Source: Sandaracinaceae bacterium
GTDB taxonomy: Bacteria; Myxococcota_A; Polyangia; Polyangiales; Sandaracinaceae
Direction of reading: 5' to 3'
Assembly (NCBI GenBank): GCA_040218145.1
Contig: JAVJQK010000122.1
Location: forward strand, 248,001-312,000
DNA length: 64,000 nucleotides
Below are positions 9,951-50,797 of the stretch, piece by piece. Made by a program: the position numbers and the translations under genes. A model generated the notes under the pieces. It had not been told where the DNA came from. It was given only the letters and a program-made list of their open reading frames with translations, and made no database searches. Position 1 is the stretch's first letter. The number at the start of each line of letters is the position of its first letter.

Positions 9951-11626
9951 TGACTCGCTTCGTGTTCGTGGTCTGCTGCCTCCTCGTGAGCGGCTGCGCC
10001 TTCATCGACGACTTCAGCCGCTTCGAGGTCGACCCCAACCGCGCCGACGCTGGCGACGCGGGGACACCTCCCGACGCCCGCGTCATCGACGCCCCCGGCT
10101 GCGTCGCCCGCCCGGAGACCTGCAATCACGAAGACGACGACTGCGACGGGACCATCGACGAAGCTCCGACCGAATGCAGCTTTCCGAACGGCGTGACGGG
10201 CTGCGTCGATGGACTGTGCGCCATGACGGGCTGCATGGAAGGTTTCGGCGACTGTACGGGTGAACTCGGATGCGAGACAGATCTCAGCTCCGCCGAGAAC
10301 TGTGGCAGCTGCGGCGTGGCGTGCGCTTGGGGCGAGGTCTGTATGGCCAGCGCCTGTGGCGCTCCAGGCATCGTCGACGTGCTGATCCTCCCGAGCACGG
10401 ATTTGTCGATCGTCGGCGCGTTGGAATGGGACGAAGCCACGGGCGACATGCTCTTGGGAATCGGGCATCGCGGAACCGTCCGGCTACCCGACCGCTCCTT
10501 GACAACCTCCGACCTCGAATCGAGCCTGCTGCGGCTCAGGCCGGACGGGACGACCGCGTGGGTGGTCAGTCTGGCGGAGGCCTCCGTTGTCGAGATCCAG
10601 TCACTGCCGACGGGCGAGGTCTTCCTCGCCGGGAGCTTCGGTGGATCGCTATCCGTTGGCGGAACCACCTACGACGCCGCCCCGTCGCGGTTCGCGGGCT
10701 ACATCAGATCGTTGACTGCCACCGGTGAAGATCGAAGCTTCGAGCACTACCGCGCAACCGATACGGTCGGACCGCGTGCGATGGGCGTAGCCGGAGGTCA
10801 TGCACTGCTCGTCGGGACTGCTTCCGGGGACTTCGAGTTCAGCGGCGCACTCGGGCAGGACGACGGCTTCCTCGTCGACCGCAACGACGCCTCAGAGTCG
10901 TCGAGCACGAGACTCTACGGCGGTAGCAGAATGGACCGAATCGATGACCTCGCCATCGCGGCCGACGGTTCGTTCGCCATCGCAGCGAGCTACGTCGGAC
11001 CCGCGTGCGACGGTCCCGCCGCGACCAGTCCCACCGCCAACGAGTTCGACTCCCAAGTTCTCATCGCCGTCTTCGATCGTCTCGGGGCGCAGCGGTGGCA
11101 GCTGACGGCGGGCGCACCAGGAAGCTCGCCGGAGCAAGCGCGGGCGGTGACGATGGACCCGGCCGGAAACGTCTACTGGAGTGGCCTGGTCGCTGGTGCC
11201 GCCGACTTCGGCGGCGGGCCGATCTCGCCGATCGACACATTCCCAGCCGTAGTCGCCAGCCACACGCCGGACGGGACCTACCGGTGGGCTATCCAGCTTC
11301 GCAACTTCACCCCCACACGAATGACGACCGACGGCGACCTGGTCTACCTGGTCGGGGAGATCTCAGACGGCGACATCTCACCGGATGGATCCGTCCCATT
11401 CTCTGGTCGGTTCGACGGGCTGGTTGCAGCCCTCGATGCGGACGATGGGCGAGTCGTTTGGGCGCGCTCTTGGGGTGGAACCGACACCGACAGGCCTACG
11501 TCCATCGAGCTCGACGCCGCGGGACGCGTCTGGGTCGCAGCTTCATCCGCGAGCGCGGTGACGCTCGGAACGCTGCATACGCCAGAGGGGTCCCGCGACG
11601 GCTACGTCTTTCGTCTGGAACACTGA
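9950..11626 (+). CDS. Lipoprotein with beta-propeller-type repeats
   Basis: The signal VFVVCCLLVSGC ends in a lipobox. Residues about 45-135 are a Cys-rich region (CNHEDDDCDGTIDE, CGSCGVACAWGEVC). The remaining 400 residues contain repeating strands of the type GxVFLAGSFGGSLSVGG, DGSFAIAASYVG and GNVYWSGLVAGAADFGG, typical of SBBP/beta-propeller repeats. It is probably a surface-exposed binding protein. Codon choice is visibly less GC-biased at third positions than in the flanking housekeeping genes, which may indicate transfer or relaxed selection. A strong terminator follows. Confidence 0.82.
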   Translation: MTRFVFVVCCLLVSGCAFIDDFSRFEVDPNRADAGDAGTPPDARVIDAPGCVARPETCNHEDDDCDGTIDEAPTECSFPNGVTGCVDGLCAMTGCMEGFGDCTGELGCETDLSSAENCGSCGVACAWGEVCMASACGAPGIVDVLILPSTDLSIVGALEWDEATGDMLLGIGHRGTVRLPDRSLTTSDLESSLLRLRPDGTTAWVVSLAEASVVEIQSLPTGEVFLAGSFGGSLSVGGTTYDAAPSRFAGYIRSLTATGEDRSFEHYRATDTVGPRAMGVAGGHALLVGTASGDFEFSGALGQDDGFLVDRNDASESSSTRLYGGSRMDRIDDLAIAADGSFAIAASYVGPACDGPAATSPTANEFDSQVLIAVFDRLGAQRWQLTAGAPGSSPEQARAVTMDPAGNVYWSGLVAGAADFGGGPISPIDTFPAVVASHTPDGTYRWAIQLRNFTPTRMTTDGDLVYLVGEISDGDISPDGSVPFSGRFDGLVAALDADDGRVVWARSWGGTDTDRPTSIELDAAGRVWVAASSASAVTLGTLHTPEGSRDGYVFRLEH

Positions 11627-24591: not shown

Positions 24592-26019
24592 ATGACGCGC
24601 CCCGTCCTCTCTCTGCGGCTCGACGACGCCGATCTGAGGGTCGAGCGAGACTCCGTTCGGCGCGTCAACACGCAGATCCGACGCGCGCTCGAGGCGCGCT
24701 TCGATCTGGCTCCCGAGCCAGACCTCGTGGTGGCAGGCGCGCTCCAGGTGCCGGAGCCCGACGCTCCGCCTCACCTGTTCGTCCCGCACGGGGCCGTCGC
24801 GGACCCCGGACACTGGCTGCGGCACTTCTCGCGCTTGCGCTCCTGCGATGCGGTGATCGCGACGTCCGACTCGTGCGTGGCCATCCATCACGCCCTCACC
24901 GAGGACGGTCGCTACGGAGTGATCCGGATCCCGCTGGGCGTCGACGTGGAGCGCTTCCGTCCCGACGAGGCCGCGCGTGCGCGCACGCGGACCGCGCTCG
25001 GGGTGGGCGACGCGCCCCTGCTCCTGTGGACCGCGGGCTGCGCGCCGGAGAAGAACCTCGCCAACGCGCTCCAGCTCCTCGAGGGGATCGCGCGAGCGCT
25101 ACCAGGCGTGCGCATGGCCATCCTCGCGGACGACGACACGCGGCGGCCACCCATGCTCGACGTCGCGCGCGCCTCGGGCGTCGCGGAGAGGCTGATCTGG
25201 CACTCCCCGGTCGACCCCGAGGCGCTCAACGACCTCTACGCGGCCGCGGACGCGCTCGTCCACCTGACCCTGATGTGGAAAGAGAACTTCGGCCTCACGC
25301 TCGCCGAAGCGCAGGCGGCCGGTCTCCCCGTGTTCGCGTCGGCGTGGGGCGGATTGCCCAGCACGGTCTGCGCCCCGAAGCGCGTCGTGCTCGCGGACAC
25401 GTGGGTCGTGCGCGGGGGCCGCAGAGTCCAGTGGCAGGCGCTCGTCCCGCCGTGCGTGGCGCGGCTCAGCCAGCCGCACACACCGCGGATCGTCCCCGAG
25501 GAGATCCGGGCGCGTCTGGGGCTCGGGCGCTTCGCGCACGATCTGGAGCGCGCGGTAGAGGCCGCGCTCGCGCGCTCGAAGACCGCGTCGCGCGAGCCCA
25601 TCACGCTCTCGGAGGCGGGCCGGGAGACGGTGCTCCGGTTCGCCAGCGAGGCCGCACGTCACCCCGGGCGGGACACGGCGGAGCTCTGCCGCGGCGCCAA
25701 CGCGCGCACGCTCGAGCATCCACAGGCGCTGATCCACGCGCACATGGCGTCGCGCGCGGAGCCTCCCACCGGAAGCCACGCCTCGTTGCAGGAGCCGCTC
25801 GACTTCGAGGGCGAGGCGATCCGCGGGCTCAACCCCGCGTGGACCCCGGACCTGGACGCGCTCTCCGAGCCCAGCCGACGCGCGTTGCGCTGGCTGCGCG
25901 AGCCACGGGCGCGGGACGAGGTCGAAGCGCAGCTCTCTCGAGAGACGCGCTCCGCGCTGCGCGATGCTGGGCTCATGGGATGGGGGCCAGCCCCATTCAC
26001 ATCAAATCAAAACGTATAG
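24592..26019 (+). CDS. Family 4 glycosyltransferase with helical C-terminal tail
   Basis: 475 residues. The middle is a GT-B glycosyltransferase: GVDVERFRP, a Rossmann half starting LLLWTAGCAPEKN, and the donor-site motif ENFGLTLAEAQAAGLPVFAS with the conserved E-x7-E. The N-terminal acceptor half is short (VLSLRLDDADLRVERDS). The last ~90 residues do not belong to GT4: LDALSEPSRRALRWLR then RDEVEAQLS and LRDAGLMGWG look like a small winged-helix. It ends inside a convergent sulfotransferase-like gene (13-base overlap). Donor and acceptor are unknown. Confidence 0.85.
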   Translation: MTRPVLSLRLDDADLRVERDSVRRVNTQIRRALEARFDLAPEPDLVVAGALQVPEPDAPPHLFVPHGAVADPGHWLRHFSRLRSCDAVIATSDSCVAIHHALTEDGRYGVIRIPLGVDVERFRPDEAARARTRTALGVGDAPLLLWTAGCAPEKNLANALQLLEGIARALPGVRMAILADDDTRRPPMLDVARASGVAERLIWHSPVDPEALNDLYAAADALVHLTLMWKENFGLTLAEAQAAGLPVFASAWGGLPSTVCAPKRVVLADTWVVRGGRRVQWQALVPPCVARLSQPHTPRIVPEEIRARLGLGRFAHDLERAVEAALARSKTASREPITLSEAGRETVLRFASEAARHPGRDTAELCRGANARTLEHPQALIHAHMASRAEPPTGSHASLQEPLDFEGEAIRGLNPAWTPDLDALSEPSRRALRWLREPRARDEVEAQLSRETRSALRDAGLMGWGPAPFTSNQNV

Positions 26020-26570
26020 CCTAGCGATGCCAGCTCGACGGCGAAGAGCTCCTCCACCAGAGCGCGCGTCGTGGGGTCGTAGTACCCGCGGTAGTCACCC
26101 TCGCGGCCGGCGGTCGGGTTGCGGTGCGGCAGCTGGACCGCGGGGAGACCGACCCGGGAGAGCACCGCGTCGAGGTCGGCCGAGAGGCGCTCGAAGCGGA
26201 GCACCGCGTTGGAATCCTGGAGGTGCATCCAGTACAAGCGGCCGCCTCGCACGATCTCCGTCGAGCCCCCGATCACCTCCTCGGGGAGGGTCGCGAGGCA
26301 GAAGATGAAGTCGCGAAAGGACCGGCCGCGGTCGTGCCGCGTCCACCACGTGACGAGCGCGTCGAAGGGGTTTCGCACCGTCGTGCAGACCGTGGCGCCC
26401 TCGAGCCAGTCTTCGGTGATCAGCCCCTGCGCCTTCAGATCGGAGACCCCGTCGTGGTGGCCAGCCGAGCGCCGTCCCCCGATGTCCTCGAGCGCGTCGA
26501 TCGTGGCGTTGGACCCGGTGTACCGATGCGCCAGGTAGACGAAGCGGTGTTCGACGAACACGACGGCCAT
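26007..26570 (-). CDS. Sulfotransferase-like protein
   Basis: A compact 187-residue protein. YLAHRYTGSNATIDAL resembles the 5'-phosphosulfate loop and VRNPFDALVTWWTRH matches the 3'-phosphate motif (RxPxDxxxS/T). It lacks the clear P-loop Lys, so substrate binding may differ. Its neighbours are a GT4 glycosyltransferase (convergent) and an HPr-kinase-like gene (divergent). Start ATG at 26570; a longer frame upstream overlaps the kinase gene and is unlikely. It might sulfate a glycan or peptide (inference). Confidence 0.65.
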   Translation of the reverse strand: MAVVFVEHRFVYLAHRYTGSNATIDALEDIGGRRSAGHHDGVSDLKAQGLITEDWLEGATVCTTVRNPFDALVTWWTRHDRGRSFRDFIFCLATLPEEVIGGSTEIVRGGRLYWMHLQDSNAVLRFERLSADLDAVLSRVGLPAVQLPHRNPTAGREGDYRGYYDPTTRALVEELFAVELASLGYTF

Positions 26571-26643
26571 CGCTGGGACTCTGCGCCGTGGGACCCTGAC
26601 GGGCAACGTTGCTCCCGCGGGCGCTGCGTGCGATGGGTCGAGG

Positions 26644-27429
26644 GTGAGCGCGCGGTGGGTCATGGGGGGCGTCGCCTTCGAGGTCGCGTTCGAGGGGGAC
26701 GCGCTCGCCCTCGGCGAGGAGCACCTGCGCTTCGTCTCGCCCCCCGAACTCGCGCGGCCGCTCGTCGTGGTGAAGGTCGACGCGTCGGTGCGGTCGGCAG
26801 GGCCGCGAGAGGATCCACGCCGCATCGACGCGGGGCCCGACTGGGTCCGGACCGCGGACGCGCACGTGCGCTGGCGCCGAGAGGGGCAGGGGCGGTACGC
26901 GGCGGAGGCGGAGCTCGAGGCGCCCTACGGGCTCTCCCACATGACCACCGCGCTGACGGGCGCGCTCGTCAGCGCCGAAGGAGGCGTGGTCCTGCACGCG
27001 GCCGCCGTGGTGCTGGAGGAGCGCGCGGTGCTGCTCATCGGGCCGTCGGGCGCGGGCAAGACGAGCGCGGCGTGCCTCTGTGAGGGCACGCGCTGGCTGG
27101 CCAAGGACCGCGTGGCGCTGCTGCCAACGAGCGCCGGTTGGCGCGCCTGGGGCATGCCGGGCGGAGACGACATCACGCTCCCTCAGGCGCCCAACCGGCC
27201 GCTGCCGGTCGCGGCCATCGCGCGGGTTCGACGCGCGGACGAGGCGCCATCGCTGCGGAGGCTGGACTCGCTCCGAGCGCTGGTCGCGCTCCGCGAGTCG
27301 ACGCAGACGGCGGGCTCGGAGCCCGCGCTCGACGCGCCCGCCGCGCTCGCGGAGGCCGTCACCGTCTACGAGCTGCGCGGGAGGCTCGATCGGCCGCTCA
27401 CCGCGTCGCTGCGGGAAGCGCTGGCCTGA
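26644..27429 (+). CDS. HPr-kinase-like (lasso-kinase type) P-loop protein, copy 1
   Basis: 261 residues. The C-terminal half carries VLHAA (116-120), Walker A GPSGAGKT (133-140), a KDR triplet (154-156) and the loop GMPGGDD. This is the stand-alone HPr Ser kinase fold without the HPrK N-terminal domain, the form found in lasso-peptide kinases that phosphorylate a C-terminal Ser. A second copy at 48642-49502 sits in the PqqD/radical SAM cluster; both share GPSGAGK and the Gly-Pro-Gly-Gly loop. Starts GTG 26644 or ATG 26662 are both possible. It ends back-to-back with the regulator stop (TGATCA). Confidence 0.8.
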   Translation: MSARWVMGGVAFEVAFEGDALALGEEHLRFVSPPELARPLVVVKVDASVRSAGPREDPRRIDAGPDWVRTADAHVRWRREGQGRYAAEAELEAPYGLSHMTTALTGALVSAEGGVVLHAAAVVLEERAVLLIGPSGAGKTSAACLCEGTRWLAKDRVALLPTSAGWRAWGMPGGDDITLPQAPNRPLPVAAIARVRRADEAPSLRRLDSLRALVALRESTQTAGSEPALDAPAALAEAVTVYELRGRLDRPLTASLREALA

Positions 27430-40516: not shown

Positions 40517-41448
40517 CAGTCGGCCTGCCGCGGGAGGATCACGTGGAACGCGGAGCCCTCCCCGAGCCGGGTCTCCACATCGATGCGTCCCCCGTGCCAC
40601 TCGACCAGATCGCGGGTGAGCGCGAGCCCGAGGCCCGTGCCGCCCCGTCGCGACTCTCGCGAGCCCGCCTGGGAGAATTCCTCGAACAGTCGGGGGATGT
40701 CCGTCTCGGGGATGCCCGGTCCGGAGTCGCGCACGGTCAGCCGCACCCCGTCCTCGTGCGGCGCCGCCTCCAGGGCGATGAAGCCCTCGCGGGTCGCGCG
40801 GATCGCGTTGGTCCCGAGGTTGATGAGCACCTGCCGGAGCCGACGACCATCCGCGTAGGGCGACGGCGTCGTCGGGTCGACCTCGCACCGCATCTCCACC
40901 ACGCCCTGCGGGAGCTGGCCTTCGAGCAGACGCGCCACCTCGCGGACGAGCGCGCCGATGTCGATGGGCTCGAGCAGCTGGGGCGTCTCCTGGCTCGGCA
41001 CCCACTCGGACAGCACCGCCTCGACGAGCTCCTGGAGATAGACGCCGGCCGAGCGGATCGCCTCCACGTCCTCGCGCTGCGTCTCGTCGAGAGGCCCGTC
41101 CACCCCCTGGAGCAGCACCTCGGTGAACCCGAGGATCGCGTTCAGCGGCGTCTTGAGCTCGTGCCGCACCGCGGCGACGAACTCCTCGCGGAACCTCCCC
41201 GCCGTCTCCGCCTCGAGGCGCATCCGATGCCGCGCCTCGGCCGCGCCCTCGATCCGCTCCTCGAGCGAACGGAGCGCGGCCGCGAGGCGGGCGGACTCTG
41301 CCCGGCGCGGTTTGGCCAGAAGCAGCGCGAACGTCGACACGACCCCGAGCGCGATCCCCGTCCCCCAATCGGCGCCGGCGGCCTGAGCCACGCCGAGGGC
41401 TCCGACACAGACGACCGCGGCGGCGGCGAGACGGAACGGTGCAGACAC
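40516..41448 (-). CDS. Histidine kinase 2
   Basis: 310 residues. One or two N-terminal hydrophobic helices (LAAAAVVCVGALGVAQAA), then a coiled coil, the H-box VAAVRHELKTPLNAILGFTEV, the N-box LINLGTNAIRAT and G-boxes DSGPGIPE and GGTGLGLALTRDLV. It is a full orthodox kinase core with almost no sensor domain. GTG at 41448 is preferred because TACCGT lies six bases upstream. It is paired with kinase 1, and neither has a linked response regulator. Confidence 0.88.
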   Translation of the reverse strand: MSAPFRLAAAAVVCVGALGVAQAAGADWGTGIALGVVSTFALLLAKPRRAESARLAAALRSLEERIEGAAEARHRMRLEAETAGRFREEFVAAVRHELKTPLNAILGFTEVLLQGVDGPLDETQREDVEAIRSAGVYLQELVEAVLSEWVPSQETPQLLEPIDIGALVREVARLLEGQLPQGVVEMRCEVDPTTPSPYADGRRLRQVLINLGTNAIRATREGFIALEAAPHEDGVRLTVRDSGPGIPETDIPRLFEEFSQAGSRESRRGGTGLGLALTRDLVEWHGGRIDVETRLGEGSAFHVILPRQAD

Positions 41449-41469
41449 GGCGGCACGGTACACTGCGCC
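41449..41469. promoter_or_regulatory. Overlapping divergent -10 elements
   Basis: Two opposite start codons lie only 21 bases apart. TACCGT on the minus strand (41460-41455) ends six bases before the kinase GTG. TACACT on the plus strand (41459-41464) ends five bases before the sulfotransferase ATG. They share the TA at 41459-41460, so polymerase binding for one gene would exclude the other. Confidence 0.45.
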
Positions 41470-42408
41470 ATGGCGTCCGGCATGCCCCGTCCTCGACGGC
41501 TTTGGCTGGTAGGCGAGCAGCGAAGCGGCACCCGCTTCGCGACCGAGGTTCTGTGCGCCTTCCCAGGCGTCGAGACGGCGGGCAGCGTGCTCCAAGCGCC
41601 GCTGCGGCTGGCCTCCGAGCTCGGCGTCGGAGCTGGCTCGGCGTTGACGCGAAGGGAACGGCTGGCCCTCACGCGATCGATGCGCCACCCGGGTGACGGC
41701 GAGCGTCTCTTCGAGGCGTCGGAGGAGCCGAGCCTGGACGCGCTGCTGTGCCGTCGCTTTGGCTGGCGGCATCCGGACGCGGTGTGGGTCGTCTCGAAAG
41801 ATCACGGTCCGTTCGAGTGGGTGCCTCGGCTGCTCGCGGAGACGGACTTCACAGTCATCGCCTTGGTCCGCGATCTGAGGGACGTGGTGCTCAGTCGTTG
41901 GACGCGCGGGGAGGAGGCCCTCGACGGCGTGGTGAGCGCCTGGAAGCGCAGCGCGCGCCAGCTGGCGGAGCTCTCTCACCCTCGATTGCTGGCGCTGCGC
42001 TTCGAAGATCTGATGAGCGCGCCCGAGCAGGCCTTGCGACGGGTGGGTCAGCTGCTGGATCGGGAGGTGAGCCTGGAGCAGACGATCGCCGCGACCGAGG
42101 CGTGGAGCCACCTGCGGGCCGACTCCAGCCACGGCGACGTGCGGCGCCCCTTCGAAGGCGTCGCGGTCGAGCGCTGGCGTCGACACGGCGACGCCGAGTG
42201 GGTGAAGCACGCCTCGGTCGTCGCCGCGGACGAGTTGCGCCTCTGGGGATACGAGGTGCCTCGGGCTCCCGTCGGCGACGTGGTTCAGGCGTGGAGGCGC
42301 TACGCGAGGGCCGAGCTGCTACGGGGCGCTCGCGTCATCGCGACGCGTGCCCGCCGACGCGCTCTTCCGCCCATGAGAGAGCCGCGTCCGGACGCGGGCG
42401 ACGAGTAG
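41470..42408 (+). CDS. Sulfotransferase family protein
   Basis: 312 residues. The 5'-phosphosulfate loop is LWLVGEQRSGTRFATEVL (positions 11-28), with RSGTRF as the P-loop-like core, and the 3'-phosphate motif is LVRDLRDVVLSRW. It would transfer sulfate from PAPS; the acceptor is unknown. It is transcribed toward, and overlaps by 90 bases, the S26 peptidase gene of the peptide cluster. A tailoring role for that peptide is possible but not shown. The Arg-rich C-terminus may bind membrane or nucleic acid. Confidence 0.82.
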   Translation: MASGMPRPRRLWLVGEQRSGTRFATEVLCAFPGVETAGSVLQAPLRLASELGVGAGSALTRRERLALTRSMRHPGDGERLFEASEEPSLDALLCRRFGWRHPDAVWVVSKDHGPFEWVPRLLAETDFTVIALVRDLRDVVLSRWTRGEEALDGVVSAWKRSARQLAELSHPRLLALRFEDLMSAPEQALRRVGQLLDREVSLEQTIAATEAWSHLRADSSHGDVRRPFEGVAVERWRRHGDAEWVKHASVVAADELRLWGYEVPRAPVGDVVQAWRRYARAELLRGARVIATRARRRALPPMREPRPDAGDE

Positions 42409-42720
42409 ACGCCCGGCCTCGAGCAGATCGCCGGGCTTGAGCCTACGAGGCCGCGGATCGCGCTGGAGCTCGACCCGCCCGATCACGCTCTCGGAGCGAG
42501 TCATCCCGACGCGCGCGCCAAAGTGGTCTCCTGCGTGCAGGAGCCAACCCGCCCTTCGCCCCGTGGGAACCGACAGCAGGACACGATGGCAGATTATCGG
42601 GTCGGCGCCGAACGCCACGATGTCACCCGCGCGAGGCGGCCGCTCGAGGGGCACCAAGGACACCACGTCCCCCACTTGAAGGGTGGGGGACATGGAGCGC
42701 CCGGCGATGAGCAGCCGCAT
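42319..42720 (-). CDS. SipW-type S26 signal peptidase-like protease
   Basis: 133 residues from the ATG at 42720. Catalytic Ser9 lies in GRSMSPTL, followed by VGDVVSLVP and AGDIVAF. His45 in ICHRV replaces the general-base Lys of LepB, and Asp65 lies in AGDHF, so this is the Ser-His-Asp (ER/SipW) variant. There is no clear transmembrane anchor, so it may be cytoplasmic and act on a small substrate. It starts 11 bases after the stop of the 55-residue peptide gene, and I infer leader removal. A longer frame to 42792 would overlap the peptide gene in another frame and is unlikely. Confidence 0.75.
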   Translation of the reverse strand: MRLLIAGRSMSPTLQVGDVVSLVPLERPPRAGDIVAFGADPIICHRVLLSVPTGRRAGWLLHAGDHFGARVGMTRSESVIGRVELQRDPRPRRLKPGDLLEAGRLLVARVRTRLSHGRKSASAGTRRDDASAP

Positions 42721-42731
42721 CGACCCACGAG

Positions 42732-42899
42732 TCAGCTGTTCGTCGTGCCACCGAAGACACAACTCGCGGGACCGCCGGGCAGCTTCGCGCACGCGAGCGC
42801 GAGCGTCTCGAACTGCGCGGTCTCCTGAACGCGCGGTCGCTCGTAGGGCCGCTTGCGCTCGGTGGTGCCAGAGCGCGGGGAGTATTCGGAATCGTCCAT
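42732..42899 (-). CDS. Putative RiPP precursor peptide (55 residues)
   Basis: Too short for usual gene calls. From the ATG at 42899 it encodes 55 residues: N-terminal MDDSEYSPRSGTTE, leader-like KRPYERPRVQETAQFE (residues 16-31) and a C-terminal part with Cys37 and Cys47 in CAKLPGGPASC, ending GGTTNS. Tyr19-x-x-Pro22 fits the leader motif recognised by PqqD-type RRE domains of lasso pathways. The final Ser is the residue that lasso HPr-kinase homologues phosphorylate. Third-position GC is high, as in real genes here. An AGAGG lies 11 bases upstream. It sits between the FG-GAP gene (15-base gap) and the S26 peptidase (11 bases). Function inferred. Confidence 0.7.
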   Translation of the reverse strand: MDDSEYSPRSGTTERKRPYERPRVQETAQFETLALACAKLPGGPASCVFGGTTNS

Positions 42900-42914
42900 G
42901 ACTCTGTCTGCCTC

Positions 42915-45900
42915 TCAGTAGTGAATGAGCATGCGGCCCTGGTTGGACATGAAGGCGGGATCGCCCACCGCGAGGTCGGCCGCGCCGTCCCCGTTCACGT
43001 CCCCGATGTAGGCCGCATGGAAGCCCTGGAGCAATCCCGAGCCGCTCGCGCCACTGAACGTCACGCTGTCGGAGCGCACCCCCGCGGTGGTCGAGCCGTC
43101 CCGGTAGAACAGGTGCGAGGTGCCGGGCATCGTGCCGTTCTGTTGGGAGCCGGCGTAGATGTCCGCCACGCGGTCACCGTCGACGTCTCCGAGCGTCATC
43201 AGCCACGGGTGGCGCCCGAGGCCCAACCAGCGCCCGAAGAAGTCCTCGACGCCGCTGGTCGAGTCATTCGTGTACGTGATGGTCGTCGCCCCGGTGAACC
43301 CACTGGCCGTGCCGAGGTAGGCGACGATTCGTCCCCCCGACACGGTGTTGTGCACCAGCGCGTCGAGGAAGCCGTCTCCGTTGATATCTCCGCCCCCGGA
43401 GATCGCGAGCCCGAACGAGCTGGCGCCACCCACTCCGATGGTCTGGAGCCCAGTGAGCGGGATGCGAACGAGCCCCGAGCCCACGTAGGCGCGACCCGTC
43501 AAGAAGCCTACGACAGCGCCAATACCCATCCCGGAGTCACCGGCCGAAGCGATGATCAGGTCGTGGAGCATGTCACCGCCTAGGTCGCCGCCGAGCGTCG
43601 ACACAACGTTGCCGAAGCCAGCGTACGTGATTCCGTCGCCCGACATGACGAACCCATCGGGTCCGGTCGCGCCCGGGACCGCGGAAGCGGTACCCGACGT
43701 GTAGGCCATCGAGCCGAGGAGGATGTAGACGTGTCCTGAACCGCCGCCGGTCGCGCCCATGGCGAGATCCATCAGCCCGTCGCCGTCGAAGTCTCCGGCC
43801 GTGCTAATGCTCCATCCCAACCCGGCGAACGTGTCCGGCCCCGAGCCCGGCACTCCGTCGTCTCCCACGAAGCACACGTCGGCGCCGGTGCAGGTGAAGG
43901 GCGCCGTCGAGGACGCGAAGACGTCGATCGTCGAGGGCCAAGGAGTGGTGGAGGGCCGACCGAAGAGCACGTAGACCGCGCCATGGAAGTTCTCGCCGTC
44001 CACCGCGAAGCCCGTGTCGCCGATGGCGATATCGCCGCGTCCGTCGCCGTTGAAGTCGCCGATCCCGGCGATGGTGCGACCGAAGCGGTTGCCGCTGGCG
44101 GTGGAGGTGAAGGTGACGTTGGCGGTGGCGCCGAGCCCGGTGCTCGAACCGAAGTAGAGGTAGGCCTCTCCGCGGCCGCCCACGAGGACGTCGTCGACGC
44201 CGTCGCCATTGACGTCACCGATCGGCGCGACCAGCTCACCCATGCGGGCGCTGCCGACGCTGCCGCTCTGCACCTCCTGCTCGAGGAAGGCCAGCGTGAC
44301 GCTGGCGCCCATCGCGGGGATGGGGGTCAGCGCGCCGCCCGCGTCCGCGGCCCGGAGCACGCAGAAGACCGTCTCCCCAGGCCGGAAGCCGCCGATGTCC
44401 TCGGACTGCATCGCGCCTGGAGACCCGGGCGCCACCGACACGACGAACGTGTCGGCTGCCATCCAGCCCGCCTCGTCCGTGATCGCCGCGTCGGCGCAGC
44501 GGAGGTCGTAGCTCTGCAGCCGGCCGCCACCCACGTCGGCGACCGCCGTCCAGCTGAACCGGGCGACGCCCCCGCGGCGGTCGGTGACCGTGGCTGCGAG
44601 ATCGTCGATCGCATTGGTCGGGGGCAGCGTGTCGACGGTGACGTTCACCGTCGCGCTCCCCGAGCCGCGCGCGTCCGTCACGCGGACCGTGATGGCCGAC
44701 GGCCCCTCCGGGAGCGAAGTGCAGAGGCTGATCGCGCCGCCCGCGCCCACCGTCGTCATGACCGGCGGGCTGCCGCCCACCGTCACGTCCACGGTGGAGC
44801 CGGCCGCCGCGTCGGTGGTGCCCTGGATGAGGCCCTGGAAGCCCGCCATGCCGCCGTCGCAGTCGTCACTCGAGGTGAGCACGCTGCCGTCCATCGGAGC
44901 CGTGATGCTGACGCTGGGCAGGTCTTCCACCGTCACCGTGCACGCGGAGCTAGTCCCGGCGTTGCCAGCGTTGTCGACGGTGGACGCGGTCACCGAGAGC
45001 ATGCCGCCCGCGCCGTAGTTCGCGTTGACGAACGTCACGAGGGTCCCACCGGTGAACATGCGCGAGGGCATGTCGATCGGCGCGCCGCCGCCCGCCGGGG
45101 CGATGGTCAGCGTCACCGTGTCGCCGACAATCCCGTTCGTGTAGACCACGTTGGTCTGGTACTGGAACCCCGGCGTCGCCATGTCCTCGTCCTGCGTGGT
45201 GGGGCGGAGGATGGCCCCGCACATCGGGCGACCGATGGACAGGCTCGGCGCGACGCAGTCCGCGGTGATCGAGACACCGCTGGAGGTCCCGATGAGCCCG
45301 GACACCTCCTGCCGTGCGATGAGGTTGTACGACATCCCGTCGCCCCGCGTCGGCAGCGGCGCCATCGCGAAGGTCGCCAGACCCGCGTACGGAGGCGGCG
45401 CGCCTGCGTCGGCCACACAAGCGGCGGTGCCGAGAACGGTGGAGGGGGTCTCGCGCAGGAGCGTGACGTCGACGCCCACGTCGGTGCAGTAGACCTCGAC
45501 CAGCGCCTCGCACGCGGGCGTGGACGGCATCAGGTCGGCGGTGCGGCCAGCGGTTCCGGCGAGGTTGTAGCCTGCACCCACGCTGGGCGTGAGGATCTCC
45601 ACCTGCGGCGCCATGGTGCGGACGCGGATCCCGCTCATGCCCTGGCTCACGTTGCCCGCTTCGTCGCGGGTCTGCACGCAGATGTCCTGCGTCGCCGAGG
45701 CCCCGAGGGTCACGCGCTGCATCCACGAGGCAGAGGCCGCGCCGAAGGGCTGCGCGTCGATCCCCGTGCACGGCCCGACTCGTAGGTCCACGCAATCCGC
45801 GCCCGCAGTGCCGAGCGCGTCGATGTCGATCTCCGTGGTCGAGCCGTCGAGGTCGTCCATCTCCGTGAAGAGTTGCCCCTCCGTGGGCTCGTCGAGCGTC

Positions 45901-46946
45901 ACTCCACACGGCGTGATGTCCACCGTCCACTCGGCGGTGGACGTGGTGAGGTTCCCGGCATCGTCAAAACACTGGGCCTGGACCCGATGCACGCCCTCGC
46001 TCAGCTCGACGTTTCCGAACGTGGCGACCATCGCGGAGGGCATCTCGCTGAGCGCGCCCGCGGTGTCTCCGTCCAGCACGAGCCGGATCGGCTGGTTGGC
46101 GCCGTCCGCGCTCGTCGTCACTTCGAAGTCGGACTGGAACCCATCGGCGTCGGAGTCGTCGTCGCTCTGGTTCAGGAAGCCGCTGTCCGTCGCCGGGTCG
46201 GTGATCTCGCAGCTGGGGCCGTCACAGTCGACGAAGATGTCGCCGCCGAAGGTGGTGTCGCAGGTCACGCCGCTCTCGTCGGTGACCTCGACCCGAAGGG
46301 TGTTGGGGGTCTCGCCGCGGTTGCCGAAGACCACTCCGTCGAAGCGGACCGCGCCGCCTTCGACGCGCGCCGTGCGACGCGGGGTGCCGTTGACGAAGAC
46401 GCGCGCCTCGGCGCCGTCCGCAGCTCCGGTCGACGCGAGCACGGTCGTCTCGAACGACATGCCGCAGGCCATGCCGTCCGTGTCGTCTTCGCGCCCGAGG
46501 GTGGTGCTGTCCCCGCCCGGCTCGGGCGTCAAGATGTTCACCGCGAAGCAGTCGCCGTTCACGGTCACCGAGACCTCGGCGGACACGACGCCTCCCTCCT
46601 CCGTCAGGGCCACCAGGGTGTGGGCCCCCGTGCTGAGGGTGACGCCGGACCAGGTGATGAGGCCGGCGTCCGTCACGTTCGCGGTGGCGACCGACGCGCC
46701 GTCGAGGCGGAGCGTGACCTCCTGGCTCACCGCCAGGCCCGTGGCCATCGCCTCGACGGAGATCTGGACCCCCTCGAGCTCGTCGTCGACGTCATCGGCC
46801 AGCGAGAGGGCGGCGCCATCCATCGGGCTCGTGATGACGATGGACGCCTCGTCGGGGTCGGGTCCGCACGAACAACCTGTCGCAGCCATGACGAGCGAGA
46901 GGCCCGCGATGACGACCAAGCGATTGAATTTGACTGAACGGGCCAC
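42915..46946 (-). CDS. Large FG-GAP/Ig-like repeat lipoprotein
   Basis: 1343 residues from the GTG at 46946, preceded by GGGGAGG. The signal VVIAGLSLVMAATGC leads to a lipobox-type Cys. The N-terminal two thirds contain Ig-like modules with repeated ITSPMDGAALSL / ITDPATDSGFL / ITAPMDGSVLTS openings, many Asp and pairs of Cys. The last ~400 residues have FG-GAP/VCBS repeats (IGDFNGDGRGDIAIGD, GDFDGDGLMDLAMG, GDVNGDGAADLAVGDP), integrin-like calcium-binding blades. It is probably surface-exposed. It lies inside the peptide-modification cluster and directly precedes the peptide gene. Confidence 0.85.
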   Translation of the reverse strand: MARSVKFNRLVVIAGLSLVMAATGCSCGPDPDEASIVITSPMDGAALSLADDVDDELEGVQISVEAMATGLAVSQEVTLRLDGASVATANVTDAGLITWSGVTLSTGAHTLVALTEEGGVVSAEVSVTVNGDCFAVNILTPEPGGDSTTLGREDDTDGMACGMSFETTVLASTGAADGAEARVFVNGTPRRTARVEGGAVRFDGVVFGNRGETPNTLRVEVTDESGVTCDTTFGGDIFVDCDGPSCEITDPATDSGFLNQSDDDSDADGFQSDFEVTTSADGANQPIRLVLDGDTAGALSEMPSAMVATFGNVELSEGVHRVQAQCFDDAGNLTTSTAEWTVDITPCGVTLDEPTEGQLFTEMDDLDGSTTEIDIDALGTAGADCVDLRVGPCTGIDAQPFGAASASWMQRVTLGASATQDICVQTRDEAGNVSQGMSGIRVRTMAPQVEILTPSVGAGYNLAGTAGRTADLMPSTPACEALVEVYCTDVGVDVTLLRETPSTVLGTAACVADAGAPPPYAGLATFAMAPLPTRGDGMSYNLIARQEVSGLIGTSSGVSITADCVAPSLSIGRPMCGAILRPTTQDEDMATPGFQYQTNVVYTNGIVGDTVTLTIAPAGGGAPIDMPSRMFTGGTLVTFVNANYGAGGMLSVTASTVDNAGNAGTSSACTVTVEDLPSVSITAPMDGSVLTSSDDCDGGMAGFQGLIQGTTDAAAGSTVDVTVGGSPPVMTTVGAGGAISLCTSLPEGPSAITVRVTDARGSGSATVNVTVDTLPPTNAIDDLAATVTDRRGGVARFSWTAVADVGGGRLQSYDLRCADAAITDEAGWMAADTFVVSVAPGSPGAMQSEDIGGFRPGETVFCVLRAADAGGALTPIPAMGASVTLAFLEQEVQSGSVGSARMGELVAPIGDVNGDGVDDVLVGGRGEAYLYFGSSTGLGATANVTFTSTASGNRFGRTIAGIGDFNGDGRGDIAIGDTGFAVDGENFHGAVYVLFGRPSTTPWPSTIDVFASSTAPFTCTGADVCFVGDDGVPGSGPDTFAGLGWSISTAGDFDGDGLMDLAMGATGGGSGHVYILLGSMAYTSGTASAVPGATGPDGFVMSGDGITYAGFGNVVSTLGGDLGGDMLHDLIIASAGDSGMGIGAVVGFLTGRAYVGSGLVRIPLTGLQTIGVGGASSFGLAISGGGDINGDGFLDALVHNTVSGGRIVAYLGTASGFTGATTITYTNDSTSGVEDFFGRWLGLGRHPWLMTLGDVDGDRVADIYAGSQQNGTMPGTSHLFYRDGSTTAGVRSDSVTFSGASGSGLLQGFHAAYIGDVNGDGAADLAVGDPAFMSNQGRMLIHY

Positions 46947-46996
46947 GATCTGCCTCCCCTTCGACCAGCGCGTCTCGCCCGCGAGGGCTCCGCTGA

Positions 46997-47002
46997 AGTA
47001 TA
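46997..47002 (-). promoter_or_regulatory. -10-like TATACT before the FG-GAP gene
   Basis: On the minus strand TATACT lies 50 bases upstream of the GTG at 46946 in the short gap after the radical SAM gene. The -35 is poor. It suggests that the FG-GAP gene, peptide and peptidase can be transcribed apart from the modification genes. Confidence 0.35.
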
Positions 47003-47043
47003 ACAAGCTCACTGCCGGCATTCTGGCCGGCCTCACCGCCGAG

Positions 47044-47094
47044 TTCAATCTCCACAGTGCCGAGCACTCGGGGTGACTGGTACGGCTTCTTCCC
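47044..47094 (-). pseudogene. Leader-like segment of a second precursor, start lost
   Basis: In a frame different from the radical SAM gene, codons 47091-47044 read KKPYQSPRVLGTVEIE. Aligned to residues 16-31 of the 55-residue peptide it is identical at eight of 16 positions (K, P, Y, P, R, V, T, E) and similar at others. The codon just before is GGG, one base from GTG, with AAGG about seven bases further upstream. Third-position GC is higher in this frame than in the overlapping radical SAM tail. The frame stays open to 46792, with a following LGGEAGQNAGSE and no Cys. It could be a start-less precursor, a sequence error, or chance. Confidence 0.4.
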
Positions 47095-48358
47095 GTGCGA
47101 CCTTAGCCCCCGGCCGGCGGATCTGAACCAGCTGTCCGGGGCGAACGCGTCCGGCGTGGGGCGAGGCAGGGGCGCCGCGCGTCCACCCGAGCTCGTCCGC
47201 GAGCGATCGGTCCATCGCCGTCTCACGGTATTCACCGTGGGTGAAGGAGCCATCGTCCATTCGAACGTACGGTCCCAGTCCGGGATCGCGATCGGGCGCC
47301 GGCTGTATCTTCGGCGCCACACCGTGCGCGAGCTCGTAGCCCACCTGCGCCTTGCGGCACGCGCCCGGATAGGGCGCGAGGGAATCTCCCACCGCGCTGC
47401 GCGCGGTCGCGAAGCAGCGGTTGCAGTAGCGATTCAGGTCGCAGCTTCGACATCCCGGCAGATCGGCCCAGCGGAGCGCTCGGATGCGGGCCCCCGCGTC
47501 GTTCGACCGCCACGCGTCAGCGACGCCATCCCGCAACGCGTGACCGACGGGCACGTCGAGCTGAGTACACGGCCGGAGCTCCCCGTTGGCCTCGACATGC
47601 AAATTACCCTGGCATGCGCCACAGACGGACGCGTCGAGATCTCGAGGGCCGGGGGGAGGTTTGGGTGGCCCGGCGAGGAGAGGGTGACGATGGACGCGCC
47701 GATAGGTGGCGTCGTCGATGGCGAATCGCTCCGGATCCGTCTCGCCGTCCTCACGGGGATCGAGCTGGGGATCCAGGAGGTAGTCGGCCCCGAGAGAGGA
47801 CACGAACTCGATGTACGCGTCGATCTCGTCCTCGTTGAAGGTCATCACCGGGGTCTTGAGGATGACCTTCACGTTCTCCGCGATCAGGTGCCGCGCGCCG
47901 TCGACCGTCTTCTGCCATGACCCGGGCACGCGAGTCACCCAGTCGTGGACCTCTGCGCGCGTGGAGTAGAGGCTAATTTGCACCTCTTGTACCGCGAGCT
48001 CGCCAAGCTCGCGCGCGAGCTCGGGTGTCATGTTGAGCCCGTTGGTGAAGAGCTTAACCGCGAAGCGCTTCTTTCGGGCGTAGGCCACCAGCTCGAGGAA
48101 GTCGCGCCGGAGGGTCGCTTCGCCTCCCGAGATGGTCAGGAGGATCACGCCGAGGTCGGCGAGCTCGTCCATGACGCGCTTCCAGTCGGCGGTCTCGAGC
48201 TCGCCCTTCTTTCCCTGGATCTGGTAGCAGTGGACGCAGGTCTCGTTGCACCGATCCGCCACCTCGATCATCGCGCTCATGGGCGCGTTCGACCCAGCGC
48301 TGACCTGACGGAGCACGCTGGCGATGCTCTTCTTGTGCCGAGCCGAGACGGAGCTCAT
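47045..48358 (-). CDS. Radical SAM/SPASM enzyme
   Basis: 437 residues. The radical SAM cluster motif is C37-x3-C41-x2-C44 (CNETCVHC) and SGGEA follows at 77-81. The C-terminal SPASM domain has its iron-sulfur ligands: C246, C249, C264 (GELRPC), C303, C306, C312, C315 and C334. The enzyme is of the PqqE/sactionine-synthase kind that acts on a peptide. Its gene overlaps the PqqD gene by four bases, so the PqqD product probably presents the substrate. The tail (from about residue 417) shows lower third-position GC and overlaps a second leader-like frame. Confidence 0.93.
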   Translation of the reverse strand: MSSVSARHKKSIASVLRQVSAGSNAPMSAMIEVADRCNETCVHCYQIQGKKGELETADWKRVMDELADLGVILLTISGGEATLRRDFLELVAYARKKRFAVKLFTNGLNMTPELARELGELAVQEVQISLYSTRAEVHDWVTRVPGSWQKTVDGARHLIAENVKVILKTPVMTFNEDEIDAYIEFVSSLGADYLLDPQLDPREDGETDPERFAIDDATYRRVHRHPLLAGPPKPPPGPRDLDASVCGACQGNLHVEANGELRPCTQLDVPVGHALRDGVADAWRSNDAGARIRALRWADLPGCRSCDLNRYCNRCFATARSAVGDSLAPYPGACRKAQVGYELAHGVAPKIQPAPDRDPGLGPYVRMDDGSFTHGEYRETAMDRSLADELGWTRGAPASPHAGRVRPGQLVQIRRPGAKVAREEAVPVTPSARHCGD

Positions 48359-48645
48359 CCGTCCCCCCGCACGACCGTCAGGGCGCCCATGTCGATCAGC
48401 TCGCCCGCGAACTCGAGCACGTCGCGCTGCGCGTCGTCGCGTGAGACCTCGAACTCGCTCACGACGCGATCGATGATCTCGGAGATGGCGACCGCCGTCT
48501 CGGTCTCGGCCCAGACGACCGTGCCGACCGAGTTGAGGGTGTGTAGCGTCTGGGCGTCGATGACGATGACGACTGCCTGTCCTTCCACGATACGTGACGC
48601 GGTGCGGTGAGACTGAGCGACACGAGAATCCAGGTCGAGGCTCAT
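48355..48645 (-). CDS. PqqD-family peptide chaperone (RRE)
   Basis: 96 residues matching PqqD throughout: DSRVAQSHRTASRIVEGQ, then LNSVGTVVWAETETAVAI, EIIDRVVSEFEVS and DVLEFAGELIDMGALTV. PqqD-type domains bind the leader of a ribosomal peptide and hand it to the radical SAM enzyme encoded next. It has four-base overlaps on both sides (HPr-kinase-like gene upstream, radical SAM downstream), showing strict co-production. A peptide with a Tyr-x-x-Pro leader is encoded downstream. Confidence 0.92.
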   Translation of the reverse strand: MSLDLDSRVAQSHRTASRIVEGQAVVIVIDAQTLHTLNSVGTVVWAETETAVAISEIIDRVVSEFEVSRDDAQRDVLEFAGELIDMGALTVVRGDG

Positions 48646-49502
48646 GTGCGCGCCCCCTCGGCGAATTGCCGCACGAGGTCTGACGGATCGCGCCCGAGCA
48701 CGGTGTCGATGAACCCGAGCCGCACCGAGCGCGCGAGGCTCTCGATCGTGGCGAGCACGCGCTGCTCGTTCTCGAGGCCGTTCGCCACCTGGCATGACTC
48801 GCGGAGGATCCGGAACGCCTCGATGGGCGAGGCGAAAGAGACGCCGACGGCTTCGGCTTGCCGAACGCGAAGGATGCCAGCGAGGGCACGCGGGCTCGCG
48901 TCGGCGCGCGGCAGAGACGGATCCTCGCCGCCGGGCAGCCCGCTGACGTACCAGGCGCCGCCGTGAGGAAAGACGATGGCGCGATCCGCAGCGAACCAGC
49001 TCGCCTGAGAGCACAGGTTGGCCGCGGTCGACTTTCCCGCGCCGCTCGGACCGAGGAAGAGCACGCCGCTCTCATCGATCGCGATGCCCGTCGCGTGGAG
49101 GACGAGCCCCCCTTCGCGCACGGCCAGCACCGACGCCAGGCTCGTCAGGAGATCCGAGCAGCCGTCGGCGCTCGGAGCGACCTGGCCGCTGGCGGCGTAG
49201 CGGCCCGCCGTCAGCGCCCGAAGAGAGGCCCTCGCGCGGCCCGTCTCCACCCGCCCGTTCTCGCCGGTCCAGTGCGCGTCGACGCGGACGCTGGGGCGAG
49301 GGGCGCCGAGCGACGGGTCGGGCGCCACAGCGCAATGCACGTGGGCGAGCGTCGGGGCGTCGAGGGCCGAGGTGCGCAGCGACAGAAGCGACGGCGTCAG
49401 GCTCCAGGCGACGCCCGCCGAGGGGTGCACGTCGAAGGAGACGCCGCCGTAGACGAAACGAAGCGCCGCGGATGGTTCGGAGGCAGTTACGGGCTCGCTC
49501 AC
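48642..49502 (-). CDS. HPr-kinase-like (lasso-kinase type) P-loop protein, copy 2
   Basis: 286 residues. Key features are VLHATG (His136), Walker A GPSGAGKST (151-159), AADRAIVF (Asp173) and the loop GLPGGED. The N-terminal 130 residues are a beta-rich domain unlike true HPrK. Relatives in lasso-peptide clusters phosphorylate the C-terminal Ser of the precursor. Here it is coupled by overlaps to the cNMP-binding gene upstream and PqqD downstream. A second copy is at 26644. Start is GTG at 49502. Confidence 0.85.
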   Translation of the reverse strand: MSEPVTASEPSAALRFVYGGVSFDVHPSAGVAWSLTPSLLSLRTSALDAPTLAHVHCAVAPDPSLGAPRPSVRVDAHWTGENGRVETGRARASLRALTAGRYAASGQVAPSADGCSDLLTSLASVLAVREGGLVLHATGIAIDESGVLFLGPSGAGKSTAANLCSQASWFAADRAIVFPHGGAWYVSGLPGGEDPSLPRADASPRALAGILRVRQAEAVGVSFASPIEAFRILRESCQVANGLENEQRVLATIESLARSVRLGFIDTVLGRDPSDLVRQFAEGART

Positions 49503-50797
49503 AACAGCACCACCTCTTCCACGTCGAGGGCTTCCTGCGCAACCACGGTTCGCATCTCGTCCTCTCGTTTCGTGGCGAGCTCGTAGAGTTCACTCAGCAG
49601 GGACGGATGCTCGCGGATGGCCTCGCGGAACTGCTCAGCCGCCAGCTCGAGCGCCACCGTCTGATGCGTCGCGATGACGTCGGCCGTGGCCGGGCGGCGG
49701 AGCACGAGGCTGATCTCTCCGACGACGTCGCCCGGGCCGAGCTCCGCGATCTGCAGCTCGTCGCCGTCCCCGTCGCGCCCGACGACCTTCACGCTCCCGC
49801 TCGCCACCAGGAAGAGGCCCTCCGGCTCCTGCTCGTGCGTGATGAGGCGCTCCCCCGGCTTGAAGCGGCGGGTCTCGAAGCGCGCCATCAGGCTCGCGCG
49901 CTCGCTCGCGCCCACGGCCGCGAGGATGGGGCTGTGCCGAATCAGGTTGGACACCATCCGGGCGCGGCAGAACTCGGAGAGCTGCTGGCCGATGACGGGC
50001 GTCTTGGCGGCGAGGCGCTCGAGGGCGTCGCGCCCCGCGACCAACAGCTGCACCGGCTCGGCGGCCACGACGGAGGCGGCGCGTGGCGCCTCGCTCACGA
50101 GCGCCATCTCACCGAAGAGCGCTCCCGGGCCGAGCTCGGCGAGCGTCACCGCCTCGTCGCCGGCGCCTCGCTGGGCGCGCAGATGTCCGCGGACCACCAC
50201 GAACGCGTCCCGTCCCTCCGTGCCCTCTTCGATCGCGGCTTCCCCCTCGGCGAGCGAGCGGATCTCCCAGACCGAGAGGAGCTGCTGGAGCGCGGGCGGC
50301 GACAGGGCCCCGAACAGAGGCAGACGCGGCACGGGTCGGGTGGTGTCGATCTCTCCCACGTCGAGCCCGGCGAGGGCCTCCGCCGCGCGTTCGAGGAGCG
50401 CGGCGCCGGACACGCTCGACAGGTCGGCGGCCTCGGGAGCGGGCAGCGGCGGAGGGGCTGGCGCCACGTCGGCCACGCGCTTCGACCCGTGCCCGAAGGT
50501 GGCCGCGATGCCGCGGAGAGCCTTCTTCTTGCCCGCCTCGGTCAGCGTGTGCGCGGCGACCACCGCGCGCGGCAGGTCACCCCGCGCGGTGAACGCGTCG
50601 ACCAGTCGCCGGGACACGCGATCGTCGGGCTTGGCGCCCGCCTCGACCAGCAACTCCACCAGCAGCAGGGCCGCGCCGAGCTGCCCGGAGGAGGCCTCCA
50701 AGATCGCCGTGCACCGACGGATCGCTTCATCACGCTGCCCGGACAGCCAAGCTGCCCAGGCGGCGTCGAGCTCGGATGACTGCGACTCCCCCGTCAT
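49499..50797 (-). CDS. Double cyclic-nucleotide-binding domain protein
   Basis: 432 residues. The N-terminal ~110 residues look like TPR helices. Two cNMP-binding beta-barrels follow, about 155-270 (FGEMALVSEAPRAASVV) and 285-405 (VVGEISLVLRRPATADVI), each with the phosphate-binding-cassette-like motif G-E-x-x-L. There is no helix-turn-helix, so it is not a Crp-type DNA binder; it may sense cAMP or c-di-GMP and affect the enzymes it is coupled to. It is the first gene of the modification operon; -10-like TAGCCT lies 10 bases before its ATG. Confidence 0.88.
   Translation of the reverse strand: MTGESQSSELDAAWAAWLSGQRDEAIRRCTAILEASSGQLGAALLLVELLVEAGAKPDDRVSRRLVDAFTARGDLPRAVVAAHTLTEAGKKKALRGIAATFGHGSKRVADVAPAPPPLPAPEAADLSSVSGAALLERAAEALAGLDVGEIDTTRPVPRLPLFGALSPPALQQLLSVWEIRSLAEGEAAIEEGTEGRDAFVVVRGHLRAQRGAGDEAVTLAELGPGALFGEMALVSEAPRAASVVAAEPVQLLVAGRDALERLAAKTPVIGQQLSEFCRARMVSNLIRHSPILAAVGASERASLMARFETRRFKPGERLITHEQEPEGLFLVASGSVKVVGRDGDGDELQIAELGPGDVVGEISLVLRRPATADVIATHQTVALELAAEQFREAIREHPSLLSELYELATKREDEMRTVVAQEALDVEEVVLL

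Follow-up and report, generated by a model that had tools for sequence, protein, structure and literature searches.

What does a bacterium make with a peptide of 55 residues whose gene lies beside those for a radical SAM (rSAM) enzyme, a PqqD protein, a kinase-like protein and a signal-peptidase-like protein? We have studied this question in a stretch of 64,000 nucleotides, which we will call the window, from a Sandaracinaceae bacterium of the Myxococcota: positions 248,001–312,000 of contig JAVJQK010000122.1, assembly GCA_040218145.1. The genome has 11.06 Mb in 148 contigs. The locus is probably devoted to the biosynthesis of a ribosomally synthesized and post-translationally modified peptide (RiPP) which is altered by the rSAM enzyme; it would be an rSAM-bearing relative of the toolkit of the linear polyphosphorylated peptides (LPP). 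The genes in question are the following:

42732–42899, minus strand: putative precursor peptide, 55 amino acids, with leader YERPRV...FET (FET at residues 30–32), core residues Cys37 and Cys47 and a terminal Ser55; conserved family, 74 distinct homologues.
48355–48645, minus strand: PqqD-family RiPP recognition element (RRE), 96 amino acids; Pfam PF05402, 1.1e-10.
47045–48358, minus strand: radical SAM/SPASM maturase, 437 amino acids; Pfam Radical_SAM 3.9e-22, SPASM 1.2e-6.
48642–49502, minus strand: HPrK-like protein with a P-loop kinase fold, 286 amino acids; weak in Pfam alone (Hpr_kinase_C 0.005), assigned by profile and model.
42319–42720, minus strand: SipW/Sec11-type S26 peptidase with a Ser-His-Asp triad, likely the leader peptidase; weak Pfam Peptidase_S24/S26, with profile matches.

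A conserved family of short peptides

The first-pass annotation had proposed the 55-residue frame as a precursor on the basis of one sequence. The frame is conserved in relatives: we have found 74 distinct homologues across the Myxococcota, a family which rules out a chance open reading frame. A first profile of 15 rows was run on 290 Polyangia genomes and then on the whole phylum; Y19, P22, C37 and C47 are invariant among the first 15 peptides aligned. Matches at E<=0.01 were found in 69 of the 290 genomes, and the phylum-wide search gave matches in further classes of Myxococcota.

The 74 homologues share the leader [YW]xxPx[VIF]x5[FL]Ex2[AS]L[AS]C. In 66 of them the first conserved Cys follows the Tyr/Trp of the motif at a distance of exactly 18 residues, and 67 have exactly two Cys when counted from that Cys onward. 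Before the first Cys, F/L is found at position -7 in 65 peptides and E at position -6 in 63; these two positions correspond to the F and E of FET in the window peptide. Small residues (A/G/S/T) are abundant at -3 (84%) and -1 (89%), as compared with 22% at -2 and 11% at -4. The C-terminal Ser, previously noticed in a single peptide, is kept throughout the family: 57 of the 74 peptides end in Ser and 63 in Ser or Thr, residues which together make up 12.4% of the rest of the core (a p-value for this enrichment ignores the relatedness of the peptides). Four truncated or doubtful loci (L090, L153, L156, L161) and three near-duplicates (L143, L144, L158) were left out of these statistics.

No convincing match to a wider peptide profile was obtained in 349 Bacilli genomes: there were five marginal matches (E 0.003–0.01), four of them with internal stops, which we treated as noise. 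A search of the PDB by means of a peptide profile found no match, and none of the NCBIfam precursor models matches the window peptide. In locus L085 the rSAM, HPrK, S26 and nucleotidyltransferase (NTP transferase) genes are present and a recognisable peptide was not found; its precursor may have diverged.

The conserved core and its neighbours

In-house profiles of the cassette proteins were run over all fetched loci. Within 10 kb of the peptide, in 78 loci, we have found the HPrK-like protein in 69, rSAM in 68, PqqD in 61 and S26 in 52. Two further genes of the window were followed in the same way and appear in 51 and 11 loci, respectively:

42915–46946, minus strand: large Ig/FG-GAP lipoprotein, a frequent accessory gene; PF01839, 5.6e-25.
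49499–50797, minus strand: protein with two cNMP-binding domains, clade-specific, which heads the operon; PF00027, 5.7e-41.

In the set of 21 loci which were fetched only because of the peptide, with at least 6 kb of sequence on each side, rSAM, PqqD, HPrK and S26 are found all together in 19. When the window rSAM was used as query, 41 of the 290 Polyangia genomes matched at E<=1e-50; the peptide profile has matches in 36 of the 41 as well. A minimal form with just five genes, S26-HPrK-PqqD-rSAM-peptide, is found in loci L126–L130 and L139. The gene order varies: the peptide comes last in most loci, and ahead of the enzymes in L132, L133, L136 and L142; the genes nevertheless remain clustered as a set. 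Conserved synteny had been expected for seven genes; it stands for five of them. The core consists of the peptide, rSAM, PqqD, the HPrK-like protein and S26, with FG-GAP as a frequent neighbour. The cNMP protein was rejected as a core member, since it is present in 11 of the 78 loci only. The cassette thus has what characterizes a RiPP system, a putative short precursor with a conserved leader, adjacent to modifying enzymes and conserved across genomes. Many Myxococcota have this cassette, by means of which they very probably make, modify and trim a short two-cysteine peptide.

The FG-GAP gene lies immediately upstream of the peptide in 48 of the 78 loci, and in all 14 relatives in which the 3' end of an FG-GAP gene was read it is followed by a peptide which bears YxxP as well as two Cys. 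The peptide could thus serve the lipoprotein as a small partner, structural or regulatory, with the enzymes acting elsewhere. We have considered this explanation and rejected it as very improbable: the loci of the minimal form keep all five core genes in the absence of FG-GAP, and the leader bears the RRE-binding YxxP motif. Furthermore, the genome has no PqqD besides that of the window, a result in favour of the adjacent peptide as its partner, as had been claimed, instead of a distant unrelated precursor.

Turning to the layout of the window, all seven frames are found where they had been described, on the minus strand. They are transcribed in the order cNMP protein, HPrK-like protein, PqqD, radical SAM/SPASM, Ig/FG-GAP lipoprotein, 55-residue peptide and S26 peptidase. 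The three junctions cNMP/HPrK/PqqD/rSAM are indeed overlaps of 4 bases, and the gaps of 15 bases from FG-GAP to the peptide and 11 bases from the peptide to S26 are also borne out. The S26 gene starts at ATG 42720. The start of the FG-GAP gene had to be corrected: it is most likely GTG 46946, right after GGGGAGG and about 98 bases past the rSAM stop.

Enzymes, related systems and a possible pathway

The motifs and catalytic residues, like the precursor family and its conserved synteny, are read directly from the sequences. In a profile search of solved structures PqqD is close to the lasso RRE TbiB1 (3e-15) and to LppB (PDB 9x8z, 1e-12). In the rSAM protein the CX3CX2C motif is invariant and is accompanied by a seven-Cys SPASM-type pattern; its nearest solved relatives are SkfB (2e-40) and PqqE (4e-33). 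The best NCBIfam equivalogs among the matches listed for the window rSAM are far under their cut-offs. The S26 profile matches eukaryotic Sec11 best (SEC11C 1.4e-11, of the Ser-His type), with bacterial signal peptidase I behind. The Ser, His and Asp of the triad do not vary in the S26 alignment, which excludes the loci with a Cys nucleophile. The predicted catalytic residues of both rSAM and S26 are intact. An AlphaFold2 model of S26 alone had a pLDDT of 42 and was not used. In L126, L127, L128, L130, L136, L139 and L142 the S26 nucleophile is changed from Ser to Cys (G-x-C-M).

On the evidence of these sequences the LPP RiPPs are the closest known system. They were described in the lpp cluster of Paenibacillus (Popov et al. 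2026, PMC13381572), which encodes the SipW-like LppS (triad S29/H68/D93), the RRE LppB, the kinase LppK, an NTP transferase and an MsbA-like exporter. Their leader has the consensus YxxPxVLxHQxIxFETxxS, is cleaved after FET in an RRE-dependent manner and precedes a core which is polyphosphorylated at Ser3; LPP are reported as restricted to Bacillota, and radical SAM is not mentioned in the text (PMC13381572). The Myxococcota cassette shares with them a SipW-type peptidase with the Ser-His-Asp triad, a discrete PqqD/RRE, an HprK-like protein, the YxxPxV...FET leader (YERPRV and FET in the window) and, in some relatives, an NTP transferase. The window peptide YERPRVQETAQFET/LALAC... has the LPP architecture with two residues fewer between the motif and FET. 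The differences are also clear. The spacing from Tyr to Phe is 11 instead of 13, and the HQ part is absent from the window leader. The core is shorter, has two near-invariant Cys and a C-terminal Ser in place of the phosphorylated Ser3; in the window it begins LAL after FET, with no Ser at position 3. The window has no NTP transferase, an MsbA-type transporter is not constant in the relatives, the hosts are Myxococcota and a radical SAM/SPASM enzyme is added. As the cassette has neither the NTP transferase nor the exporter, and its core no Ser3, we do not file it as a member of the LPP group.

The lasso peptides of the paeninodin and Bsf types (PadeK/ThcoK/BsfK; PMC9266682, PMC10368454) also have a discrete RRE, a YxxP leader, an HPrK-family kinase and an NTP transferase gene, and those of the paeninodin type a conserved C-terminal Ser. 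They differ by having a cyclase and a B2 protease where the cassette has rSAM and S26. The first-pass annotation had already remarked that the lasso genes are missing and that rSAM takes their place: neither a cyclase nor B2 was found among the cassette genes, and the lasso reading was rejected on this basis. The only Transglut_core3 match of the genome is on another contig, within a very long frame; lasso cyclases were not searched genome-wide.

Sactipeptides, ranthipeptides and PQQ-type systems (SkfB, PqqE, mycofactocin) share the rSAM-SPASM maturase and a Cys core, and several of them an RRE. The window cassette has CX3CX2C with seven further Cys and core Cys, as do sactipeptides, whose products bear a Cys S to C-alpha thioether; its kinase-fold protein and SipW-type peptidase set it apart. 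The SynChlorMet cassette, which to judge by the family names contains ScmC (HprK-related), ScmD (PqqD-related) and ScmE/ScmF (rSAM), would be similar by uniting three of these proteins. In NCBIfam 15 of 26 HPrK-like members match ScmC and 18 of 26 PqqD members match ScmD. However, the window proteins reach only 18 of the 125 bits of the curated cut-off for ScmC, 24 of 100 for ScmD and 106 of 400 for ScmE. We have found no paper on PqqD with HPr kinase and radical SAM, or on SynChlorMet, among the open-licence literature, and the combination of rSAM with a kinase-like and a signal-peptidase-like protein was not found in the open-licence papers and family libraries searched. The kit minus rSAM is already known, as the LPP RiPPs (PMC13381572).

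From these comparisons we infer the chemical steps, their order, the final structure of the product and its role. The 55-residue peptide would be the precursor. PqqD would bind the YxxPxV leader motif and pass the peptide to the enzymes, as suggested by the LppB, TbiB1 and PbaB1 complexes. The SPASM rSAM would then modify the core, where the two conserved Cys are the most likely targets and a Cys thioether crosslink would be one example of the outcome; we favour a chemistry centred on Cys because no solved enzyme is closer than SkfB and because these are the sole near-invariant core residues. The S26 peptidase would cut off the leader, either at the site following FET, as LPP peptidases do, or at one following the AxA-like motif which immediately precedes Cys37. 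Across the family, the HPrK-like kinase probably adds a phosphate to the C-terminal Ser/Thr, and this residue may subsequently be decorated by an NTP transferase; within the clade of the window this branch looks altered or lost. The earlier idea that PqqD, rSAM and a SipW/Sec11-type protease act on the peptide is well supported by synteny, with the modification itself as a prediction.

Several observations weigh against this reading. The two Cys could merely form a disulfide. In L126 the rSAM gene (10000–11028, minus strand) lacks several SPASM Cys while the peptide and the cassette are kept, so the chemistry may vary inside the family. Some close relatives (L059, L062, L063 and L068) have no S26 in the vicinity of the peptide; overall it is seen in 52 of the 78 loci, some of which are cut by contig ends. 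No transporter is constant across the loci. Finally, the window HPrK-like protein lacks one catalytic Asp of the His-Lys-Asp-Asp (HKDD) motif, and the link between kinase motif and terminal Ser is only suggestive, as it rests on few evolutionary changes.

The cassette brings radical-SAM chemistry together with the recently described kinase and signal-peptidase machinery of LPP and paeninodin. It defines a precursor family and five associated genes in a phylum valued for its natural products, with dozens of precursors ready for expression, and raises two questions: which reaction rSAM carries out on a core with two Cys, and whether HPrK-like proteins can still act as kinases once their Asp-Asp motif is damaged.

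The HPrK-like protein and phosphorylation of the peptide

A profile of 26 HPrK-like sequences matches HPrK structures (4e-6) and PEPCK (9e-7). The AlphaFold2 model of the window protein (pLDDT 78) has the HPrK/PEPCK fold: Foldseek gives PEPCK with E 2.7e-5 and HPrK with 1.1e-4, and VIA-align a Z of 12.1 with an rmsd of 4.9 Å over 232 residues. The His and the P-loop Lys are conserved in the family, and 60 of the 80 loci with HPrK have D-[DE] as the Asp pair. The window protein keeps the His, the P-loop Lys and the second Asp, and has Ala at the first Asp of the pair, a difference from the complete motif of the lasso kinases. The first acidic residue is also lost in 12 relatives (L059–L070) and in L133, L136, L137, L142, L148, L150 and L155.

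The first-pass annotation had the peptide phosphorylated on its final Ser. This is plausible for the family and uncertain for the window, where the first Asp is lost. Kinases of the paeninodin (PadeK) type phosphorylate the C-terminal Ser of their precursor (PMC9266682), and the conserved C-terminal Ser found here fits this type better than Ser3 of LPP. An NTP transferase (PF14907) is present in about 20–22 relatives; it is found in 19 of the 60 loci with an intact kinase motif and in none of the 20 in which the first Asp is lost. There is none in the 64-kb window, and the single PF14907 match of the genome is on another contig. The loss of the first Asp together with the absence of the NTP transferase makes phosphorylation doubtful in this genome.

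The product of the same cassette might instead be an LPP-type phosphopeptide, defined by the modification which the HprK-like kinase makes at the C-terminal Ser, with rSAM in a secondary role. The prevalence of terminal Ser/Thr and of the D-[DE] motif, the action of PadeK-type kinases and the restriction of the NTP transferase to loci with an intact kinase are all in line with it. We consider it unlikely: the clade of the window has dropped the first Asp and the NTP transferase yet kept rSAM and both Cys, and in the family the Cys are more conserved than the terminal Ser.

In the window clade the HPrK-like protein could also be a pseudokinase or a scaffold which binds the precursor, so that the local product would be modified by rSAM and cleaved but unphosphorylated. 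This explanation, which touches one step and is compatible with the rSAM-modified RiPP, has nearly an even chance of being right. The replacement of the first Asp in the window and its 12 relatives is consistent with it, since both Asp matter in BsfK (PMC10368454), and four of the 11 peptides of the window group end in a residue other than Ser/Thr. On the other hand, the His, the P-loop Lys/Thr and the second Asp are kept and the terminal Ser persists in most peptides. The kinase motif is associated with the C-terminal residue (46/50 versus 11/18, Fisher p about 0.005), but the motif has changed only some three times (at least 3) along the rSAM tree; the association is therefore not independent evidence and not phylogenetically significant. 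That between NTP transferase and kinase motif has the same limit and is equally suggestive. For the rSAM-modified RiPP we can only tentatively propose a new class distributed among the Myxococcota, and it is rather doubtful that all its parts hold: a Cys crosslink, phosphorylation of the C-terminal Ser, further decoration in some members, and cytoplasmic cleavage by a SipW-type peptidase, with a Cys nucleophile in some clades.

Loci L071, L074–L078 and L080 have paired adjacent HPrK-like genes beside S26, one with an intact Asp-Asp and the other degenerate (HN/SN). One further gene lies next to the window cassette:

40543–42408, plus strand: sulfotransferase-domain gene in a long frame, with the domain from about 41500; PF13469, 1.3e-10; membership of the cassette doubtful.

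It converges on the S26 gene, and the two overlap at their 3' ends. Convergent homologues beside the peptide are found only in L059 and L066; the gene may encode one more tailoring enzyme or be just a neighbour. At 26644–27429, plus strand, the window has another HPrK-like gene, which belongs to the same family as that of the cassette (171 bits, 34% identity). It also lacks the first Asp (LAKDRVAL), and there is no PqqD or rSAM nearby. Close to it a small sulfotransferase-like gene (26007–26825, minus strand) and a glycosyltransferase-like stretch were recognized by eye.

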